DNA of 64,000 bases from Atrichornis clamosus (lineage: Eukaryota > Chordata > Aves > Passeriformes > Menuridae): NCBI GenBank assembly GCA_013400975.1, contig WBMZ01004769.1, positions 26,210 to 90,209 of the forward strand. The letters run 5' to 3'. Below, piece by piece: positions 18,701-21,700 of this stretch. Under the pieces are notes generated by a model. That model did not search any database. It was not told where the DNA came from and saw only the letters and a program-made list of their open reading frames with translations. The translations under genes were made by a program, and so were the position numbers. Position 1 is the first letter of the stretch; each line of letters starts with the position of its first letter.

Positions 18701-21700
18701 ACATTATAAAACACAACTTGAAAATAAATTACAGGATTTTTTCATATAGAACCAAATTAATTATTTTTTGTCATTTTAAAAACTAAAATTTTGGGAAAGA
18801 TTCTAACCATTTTCTCTTAAAAACTAGCTTTTCAATACAGTCCCTTTAAACATAGAATATTTCATGAGATTCTTAAGAATTTCCCCTACCTCCCCACCCC
18901 AGCAAAAAAAATACATAAAACGAGTATTATTTTCCTCTGTTTCTATAAGGTCGCTTTACCTTTTTTTAAGCAGCTTATTTTTACTGTGCACAAGGAGGCC
19001 TGTAAGTGATTTCCTCAGAACATATTATGTCGGGTTTAAGCCAATAATGTTTACTCAATGTTGCCAAAACAATGCTGACATACTTGTCTCTTAACAGGTG
19101 AATATGTAATCATGACAGTTTATTTCCACTTGCAAAGGAAGATGGGCTACTTCATGATACAGATATACACTCCATGCATTATGACAGTCATTCTTTCTCA
19201 GGTGTCTTTCTGGATTAACAAGGAGTCTGTGCCAGCCAGAACAGTTTTTGGTATGCTGCATTAAGGTCTTTGAACAGCTCAGCATCACATCTACCATTCA
19301 TTCATTCCTTTCATTGCTTGTTTGTTTTAGGTGAATATTCACTCCAGCTGCTCTATTTCCATCTTCAAAGGAAAATAGGCTACTATCTCATTCAGACATA
19401 CATTCCATGCATCATGACTGTAGTCCTCTCTCAAGTTGTGTTTTGGATCAACAAAGAATCTGTTCCAGCAAGAACCGTGGCTGGTATTTGTGTTTTTTCT
19501 TTTGTCATTCATTTCATTCGCTGTATTGAATCCATTGTATCAATCAGATCCTGTAATCCAGTGGGGATTAGGAAAGGAAGCTAGTAAGTTTCAGCCAACA
19601 ACAGTAAACACTAAAATGAAACCAAATAATAGTCGATTTTCCTACGAGGGTCAAAATTCTCTTCTCAGAATGTTTGGTAAGCCAGACTTGTTTGTGACGC
19701 TTTTCAATATATTTTTGAATGCAGGAAGGGGCAATTTCAGAGTAAATGTCAACTTCTCCCTTTTCTAAAGGGGATTTTTTTCCTATGGATTTATTGTCTT
19801 GTGAAACCAAAATGAGTTAAAGCTTTAAAAGAAAAAAAAATTACATGGAATGGAATTATTATCATCTGACATAAGGTACCTCATCTAACCACTCATCCTG
19901 GAGTGCTCTCTTCCTCTTGGCTACAAAGGTATCTAAACTGCTGAGGGCTTTAGATTAATAAGGTTCAGTGAGATGAATAATGTCCCCAGCACAGGCTGGA
20001 GTTGTTACGTGAAAGGTGTATCCATATTGCACAGCAGAGCCCTTTTTTCTTTCCAGTGATTTGAATTAATGCTCTCAAAGATGTGAGTCTCCTTAATTTT
20101 TAGTGTGGGCTCTGCTCTTAAATTTGACACCTTCTACAACTCTTGAATGTTGATCTGAACCTGCACTCATTGTTAAGGGGTAAACTTTGTCTGACTGAAT
20201 TTTTTTCTATAAAAACAATAATAAAAGTACTAAGAAAGAATAATCAAACTTTTCAAAAACTTAATGAATCCACATTCCCAGTATTTCTGGGCAAAAAAAT
20301 TCCCTTTGTGAGACTTGTCTCCAGTAACAAAAGGTTAGGGAACATATGTTCACTAAACAGAAATGGTGCAAGTCTCATCATTCAAATGAGCCTATAACCG
20401 CACTTAGCAGGCTACAGGATTTGTGTAATTTGATTTCAGTCAATTGGCACTTCCTACCTGTCTGGAATGATATTCATAAAAGCACTGCAAATCTTTTGGA
20501 AGGCTAAGGAAACGCAGCTTCCTCAGGTGCCTCTGAAGGAAGAGCAACATTTTTTGTTCTTGAAATCCCCATTGGGATGTGATTTGGCATCATTAGGCCC
20601 TTACAGGTATTATCTTCTGGCAACTGGGATTTTTTTAAAGTTCTTAAAGTATTAAAAGATCAGGTAATAGATTTTCAAGGTTATTTATTGCAATGGAAGT
20701 ATATATATATATTTTTATATAAGGTTTATACACCAGATATGATGCTTCCTTATTTGGCTTTATATTGCAACTCTGGCCTATAGAGTTACATCCTCTACAT
20801 TGTGAATAAAACATATTTGCAATGTAGTGGGCATGGAAGGTGACTCTATATGCTTGAATATAGAATATTCAAATATGCAGATAAGTCTGTAGCCAATTTG
20901 GTAATAATTACATAAGTGCCCCAAACACTAGAATAACAGCTCTTAGCTGTTGGACTGAAGAGTAAACACAGAAACAAAAAAATATTTTATGAAAATGGTT
21001 AACACCTTTCTTAATATTGTGTAAAATAGTCACATTAGCATTTTAAAAGAATATTTCAATCATTATTCCATTTGTATTTCTCCCAGGCACAGTCTGAATT
21101 TATAGTCCTTACTCATTCAAAATTCCCTGGATTATGAATACTTTAAGGAAAAGAGGGCAAATCCCTTATGACAAAAAAAGACTTCCAGTCTTTTTCAGTA
21201 AAAAAGAAAAGTTTTTAAATGGAGAAGGTTTAAAATGCATGATATTGCAAATTCTTGAATTGCAGACTTTCACTTTTACTTGTAAGTTCCAAAACTAAGT
21301 TTGAGAGGAATTAATAGTAGAATAACAGTGATGTGCCCAAACCAGTTTCTCAGAACAAAATAACTTAGCAACTCTATTTACCTCCAAAATGGATGCCAGT
21401 TATCAGATTTCAATGTTTACATTATGTAACAGATTCTTCAAAACTTACCAAGAAGTATTCAAGGTGTAAAGACCAGGGTAAACAATTGTCAGTTGCACAG
21501 TTTACCAACTGTAATTTGGTATTCAGTTTGATAAAGTAGCTTTCCACAGTGCAGAGCATTTCATCAATATTCACTCCACATTGAGAGAATTCTAATCTAT
21601 ATCTGTGCTAGAATAGAAGACCTATTCCTAAGTTCAATTCCTGATGCAGTAAGTTTTTTATTCAGACACAGAATATAGCAATTTTATTACTAACTAGCAC

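Follow-up and report, generated by a model that had tools for sequence, protein, structure and literature searches.

A probable ancient pair of mutually exclusive exons in GABRA6 of Atrichornis clamosus and other jawed vertebrates

The gene for the alpha-6 subunit of the GABA-A receptor, GABRA6, lies on the plus strand of a 64,000-nucleotide (nt) stretch of the Atrichornis clamosus genome (contig WBMZ01004769.1, positions 26,210 to 90,209), here called the window, whose own numbering is used throughout. The gene has ten coding exon positions, spanning 15678-39260, and the seventh is doubled. Our conclusion is that the two copies, 7a and 7b, very probably form an ancient mutually exclusive exon pair, yielding two alpha-6 subunits. 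According to this model, exon 6 (18529-18672) would join either 7a or 7b, and then exon 8 (23055-23314). The two subunits would have the ligand-binding head, most of the pore and the tail in common, and would differ in the strand before the first transmembrane helix (M1), in M1 itself and in the cytoplasmic start of M2.

Exons 7a (19098-19250) and 7b (19331-19483) are 153 nt each, both in phase 1, with AG ahead and GT behind, and they are separated by an intron of 80 nt (19251-19330). The repeat finder reports a single 159-nt direct repeat, with two copies at a spacing of 233 and 73% identity. The first-pass annotation had described two 153-bp exons, 80 bp apart, with equal phase and intact splice sites, and both direct reading and the repeat finder confirm this. 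Exon 7a encodes the end of the extracellular domain, M1 and the first turns of M2, and is the canonical alpha-6 sequence (52/52 residues identical to alpha-6 in PDB 9oum). Exon 7b was proposed to be an alternative version of the same segment, and this holds as well: 38 of 51 residues are common to both peptides, both match the Pfam family Neur_chan_memb, and either exon, spliced with the nine others, gives an open frame of 465 residues whose only stop is at the end. The frame is also kept with both exons or with neither. Of the 465 residues of the 7b product, 460 agree with a crow protein (P0051) and 459 with one from zebra finch (P0064). Exon 7b aligns to alpha subunits without gaps, and in the PDB it matches alpha-4 and alpha-6 best, at the same position in the chain. 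Its assignment draws on direct reading and the repeat, and on the homologues, the clade and the simulations described below.

At the DNA level the comparison of 7a with 7b shows 43 differences in 153 bases (72% identity), of which 25 fall at third positions (p 0.0007). Nei-Gojobori counting gives a dS of 2.06, with synonymous sites near saturation, a dN of 0.187 and a dN/dS of 0.09. We compared this with 20,000 neutral simulations in which the number of base differences was fixed at the observed 43. In the simulated exons a mean of 23.8 and a maximum of 34 of the 51 residues survived, against 38 observed. The frame stayed open in 4,840 runs, but no run combined an open frame with 38 or more residues kept, and the likeness of the two peptides is therefore not due to chance. 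Both exons are intact, homologous and under strong purifying selection.

A search with 7b against the whole genome (1.01 Gb, only the best candidates being scored) returned 26 matching exons, all scored, which we take to belong to the Cys-loop chloride-channel family. Among these best candidates the GABRA6 locus is the sole site with two adjoining copies; the other two pairs found on one contig lie more than 90 kb apart.

To look at the distribution of 7b we used protein searches, from which 304 proteins were retrieved in total, in sets biased toward the type of the query. The search with the 7b segment listed 120 of 819 matches, and such a query is unable to reveal proteins with 7a only. A 7b-type segment alone is found in 96 of the 120, and 22 hold a 7a-type followed by a 7b-type segment, one of these (P0025) being a broken frog model. 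The last two are a 7b model fused to an alpha-1-type exon and a protein with two 7a-type segments. The first-pass annotation had suggested looking for 7b in other birds, turtles and lizards, where a broken or absent 7b in related birds would have spoken against it. Among the matches listed, 7b-type exons are present and intact in birds from ostrich to finches, in turtles and in lizards, and also in frogs, axolotl, lungfish, bichir, reedfish, sturgeon, bowfin, sharks and teleosts. The exact 7b of the window is found in 50 of the 304 proteins, 49 with a bird name and one from a turtle. In an exon tree of 59 chosen segments, which has only 52 columns and inner forks mostly without resolution, all 32 7b segments make up a single clade (100/100) that excludes 7a and the other alphas. 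These sequence comparisons show a single origin for the 7b type, older than the living jawed vertebrates. Because 7b spans sharks to birds and forms one clade, the duplication is placed before the split between sharks and bony vertebrates, and the pair would have been kept for more than 400 million years.

No mammal could be recognised by name in the 120 proteins listed of the 819 matched, or in the 120 listed of 306 matched by a second 7b query, from eel; the names are partial, and three of the proteins listed have none. A yak (Bos mutus) model fused to alpha-1 (P0210) has an alpha-6 exon of the 7a type only. 7b is likely absent from mammals. In most of the birds listed the amino acids of 7b are identical. 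Owls of the genera Strix, Otus and Tyto (P0076, P0077, P0078, P0011, P0088) have one to four changes in 7b and two Athene owls have none, which is perhaps of interest if 7b is retinal.

In teleosts the two exon types seem to be divided between two genes. All 88 new proteins from the eel 7b query, most of them from teleosts, have one exon-7 segment, of the 7b type, and among the 120 matches listed no protein is visibly named alpha-6b. A 7a-type query from hake, with 120 of 687 matches listed, gave 96 new proteins, of which 85 are 7a-only. These include twelve counted as named alpha-6b, one named alpha-4 and six frog alpha-6 proteins (P0295, P0297, P0299-P0302). Of the others, five contain a 7b-type segment in a long fused model and six are other fused or non-alpha-6 cases; no 7a-only protein visibly named alpha-6a is among the 120 listed. 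As each list is biased to the type of its query, this is an agreement of names and no census.

We also built a tree from the rest of the protein (48 chosen rows). It is a quick tree with SH-aLRT support only, in which 44 rows make up the alpha-6 side, with alpha-4, alpha-2 and alpha-1 outside (fork support 88). Teleosts form one group (100) inside alpha-6, next to bowfin, and this group has two halves. The first half has 14 rows, all 7b, and the second, the alpha-6b half, has 13 rows, ten of them 7a-only; the relevant forks have support of 86-93 and two are drawn open, making the placing fair, not firm. The three exceptions in the second half are conger and one Aldrovandia copy, both with 7b, and Paramormyrops, which has both exons, its 7b looking degraded (P0023, P0135, P0163). 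Early-branching teleosts thus retain traces of the exon pair in the alpha-6b half of the tree. From these sequences teleosts seem to have split the pair, with alpha-6a carrying 7b and alpha-6b mostly 7a. This fits a pair that was present at the teleost genome duplication and was divided afterwards, and in the proposed history mammals would have lost 7b. Zebrafish was not found by name among the 7b matches listed, but from the alpha-6a proteins of other otophysans (Salminus, Hoplias, Brachyhypopomus) we infer that zebrafish alpha-6a is of the 7b type.

The use of 7b alone is supported by database proteins and one transcript-like open reading frame. This frame (P0082) encodes 465 residues with 7b only, joins exons 6, 7b and 8, and is identical to the window's product at 455 of 465 residues. 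We regard it as transcript-like because it lies on a contig of 3,038 nt, whereas the coding exons span 23.6 kb in the window. A similar 7b-type protein of teleost character (P0208, 451 residues) is found on a contig of 1,891 nt. In contrast to P0082, the exon in P0093, which has the same source label, 'lgn', is flanked on either side by unrelated sequence, as expected for genomic DNA. Many of the annotated 7b-only isoforms are gene models. Products with 7a alone are represented by the PDB 9oum alpha-6 and by the six frog proteins.

How the two exons would exclude each other was examined with a hand-set scoring of donors and branch points based on the consensus. On this scale the donors of 7a and 7b score 0.87 and 0.16, the latter being the lowest computed, compared with 1.5 to 4.4 for five other alpha exons of the genome and 7.34, the top score, for exon 6. 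After its last internal AG the 80-nt intron has branch-point-like adenines 37, 43, 50, 54 and 63 nt from the 7a donor. In OGDH, branch points less than about 50 nt from the donor accompany exclusion (PMC7969005). Exclusion in GABRA6 would act mainly through the 80-nt intron, with usable branch points at or near the steric limit of about 50 nt from the 7a donor, and the two weak donors would leave the choice to tissue factors. Steric exclusion of this kind is compatible with the scores but not proven. Two other causes were rejected. RNA pairing is not indicated in the 106-nt stretch 19240-19345 (z 1.21, with 179 of 200 shuffles at least as stable), and decay of the double product fails as an explanation because its frame stays open.

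Several observations weigh against strict exclusivity or against parts of the evidence for it. The adenines at 50, 54 and 63 nt are not clearly under the steric limit, and the donor of exon 2 of GABRA6 is weak too (0.37), so that a weak donor does not set 7a and 7b apart. That the 'lgn' label of P0082 stands for contigs assembled from public reads is our reading of the label. Furthermore, 22 of the 304 retrieved proteins hold 7a and then 7b, the cluster P0001 represents 72 sequences, and all shark and lungfish entries among the matches listed hold both exons. Such tandem models recur across vertebrates (P0001-P0012, P0014-P0021, P0023), in birds, lizards, frogs, lungfish, reedfish, sturgeon, a mormyrid and sharks. 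They may be annotation artefacts or real double-inclusion transcripts, and since inclusion of both exons keeps the frame, decay would not clear the double product. If 7b were normally spliced together with 7a, the subunit would be longer and contain M1 twice, or the product would be regulatory and never a channel. We consider this improbable: 7a is missing from 96 of the 120 listed 7b matches, from P0082 on its short contig and from the 88 new, mostly teleost proteins of the eel search, and an extra M1 would upset the four-helix topology. Of the first-pass proposal of a probable mutually exclusive pair, the use of 7b has gained support from the 7b-only database proteins, P0082 among them, while the 22 proteins with both leave strict exclusivity uncertain. 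On the available sequences mutually exclusive splicing of 7a and 7b is well supported but unproven.

The origin and state of 7b allow two further accounts. We give practically no credence to 7b being a dead or nearly dead copy that is open by luck or slowly decaying, although its donor has the lowest score, it is further changed than 7a from the other alpha exons of the genome, and the Paramormyrops 7b looks degraded. The simulations, the dN/dS and the presence of 7b from sharks to birds in a single clade rule out a recent or decaying duplicate, and conservation across species, including the 50 proteins with the exact 7b, refutes the dead copy as a general claim. It is also unlikely, if somewhat less so than routine double inclusion, that 7b came from another alpha gene by exon shuffling or gene conversion and not from a tandem duplication of 7a. 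Residues T23 and I25 are common to 7b and alpha-4 where the 7a of the bird has I23 and T25, and the exon tree allows 7b to have split off either before or after the parting of alpha-4 and alpha-6. Against this, shark 7a also has T23 and I25, so the state of amniote 7a looks derived, and Q13 is common to 7b and 7a, whereas the five other alpha exons of the genome have R or K there. The head-to-tail position and equal length fit a local duplication.

Thirteen of the 51 residues differ between 7a and 7b. Five are in the strand before M1 (VIMTV in 7a, SLQLL in 7b), seven more lie up to and within M1, and the last, phenylalanine to alanine, is the final full codon of the exon. Since alpha-1 V251 is numbered as the -3' position of M2 (PMC4410641), this exchange is at the M2 3' position, beside a conserved glycine. 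Phenylalanine is found here in 7a and in five other alpha exons of the genome. Replacement of a conserved M2 glycine in the glycine receptor (G256V) increased desensitization, and the exchanged part, M1 and the cytoplasmic start of M2, lies near the region that sets desensitization (PMC4410641). From its sequence, 7b would be expected to alter gating. Residue 19 of the segment is F in all 33 distinct 7a-type segments, a class that takes in alpha-4, alpha-1 and alpha-2 segments, and Y, H or C in all 64 distinct 7b-type segments. The class labels were set by residue 51 (A or F) and are circular at that position, but the two classes can be told apart by residue 19 independently.

Where 7b is used is less clear. 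One tentative idea is that 7b makes a photoreceptor alpha-6, with gating or partner choice unlike the brain form, and that this ancestral form of jawed vertebrates has its own gene in teleosts and was lost in mammals. The photoreceptor role is a lead, on which two zebrafish studies disagree. We lowered its odds because one of them leaves the eye column empty for gabra6a; its Table 1 assigns gabra6a to forebrain and midbrain and has an eye mark for gabra6b (PMC7973766). The same table favours a pair that is real and exclusive but in which 7b has no tissue specialisation, for example in photoreceptors, and is a minor form wherever alpha-6 is made. We put this at a little short of an even chance. 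It is at odds with the Xenopus alpha-6 models P0095, P0101, P0106 and P0107, all of the 7b type, though these came from the 7b search. In the study with this table, combining alpha-6a with beta1, beta2 or beta3 produced no current, whether gamma2 was added or not, and alpha-6b was functional with beta3; several other zebrafish subunits also failed there (PMC7973766).

Alternative exons are known from other receptor genes. Insect Rdl, a GABA-gated channel, has exclusive exons in its extracellular part, of independent origin. In GLRA2 the pair is 3A/3B, in the extracellular domain, with few residues changed, and the flip/flop site of the AMPA receptors is also extracellular. GLRA2, named among convergent cases (PMC9741552), is a vertebrate chloride-channel relative with tandem duplicated exons, but unlike it the GABRA6 pair swaps M1 and the start of M2. 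The insect nicotinic receptor alpha6 is likewise a pentameric channel gene with tandem alternative exons (8a/8b/8c), more than about 300 million years old (PMC1919356), but it is a cation channel with three versions in most species and an independent duplication. The AMPA receptors are brain receptors with two exclusive exons (PMC5740500), but have an unrelated fold, and their pair is present in mammals. OGDH, a metabolic enzyme, also has an ancient vertebrate exclusive pair (4a/4b), in which the intron is short and the branch points lie too close to the upstream donor (PMC7969005); this intron is 118-131 nt in birds and mammals, and its branch points are mapped, whereas those of GABRA6 are guessed.

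A literature search found no description of the GABRA6 pair among the titles and abstract openings of the papers listed, and 'GABR' does not occur in the main text of two surveys of human exclusive exons (PMC9741552, PMC5740500). A human GABRA6 variant with retained intron sequence between exons 6 and 7 has been described (PMC1868939); that sequence is distinct from 7b. The isoforms already exist in databases as predictions, and the novelty seems to lie in recognising the exons as a pair, in the age of the pair and in its division in teleosts.

The remaining exons, all on the plus strand, splice into the same open 465-residue frame. The coding part of exon 1 runs from the ATG (15678-15715) and is followed by exons 2 (15893-16011) and 3 (16293-16360), and by exons 4 (17613-17833) and 5 (17940-18022), which are also seen by direct reading. 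Exon 8 encodes the rest of M2 and M3. Exon 9 (34038-34298) encodes the M3-M4 loop and M4. Exon 10 (39210-39260), preceded by AG, encodes the C-terminal tail FFEPSAMHFRNDPQSN and the stop, and this tail matches bird proteins such as P0064. Bird alpha-6 has a 16-residue tail from a tenth exon. Reading through past exon 9 gives a different tail, and some retrieved alpha-6 models stop in a similar read-through (in the window, 34299-39260).

Within exon 8, positions 23114-23167 match the Rfam model of the GABRA3 RNA-editing hairpin (RF01803) with 68.5 bits, above the threshold of 57. The last A of an isoleucine codon ATA (23147-23149) is unpaired in the model structure, opposite a C at 23134, as at the edited GABRA3 site. 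From this match bird GABRA6 may be RNA-edited, with plain coding conservation as the alternative account.

The diversity of GABA-A receptors is usually counted by genes, and a second alpha-6 transmembrane core would add a form. The 7a and 7b products would be natural chimeras, in which M1 and the cytoplasmic start of M2 are swapped in an otherwise identical subunit, and 7b may be relevant to the different behaviour of zebrafish alpha-6a and alpha-6b. The teleosts offer a clear test case of one splice pair divided between duplicated genes. If the pair is what we propose, work on rodents and humans has missed one ancestral receptor form, apparently absent from mammals.
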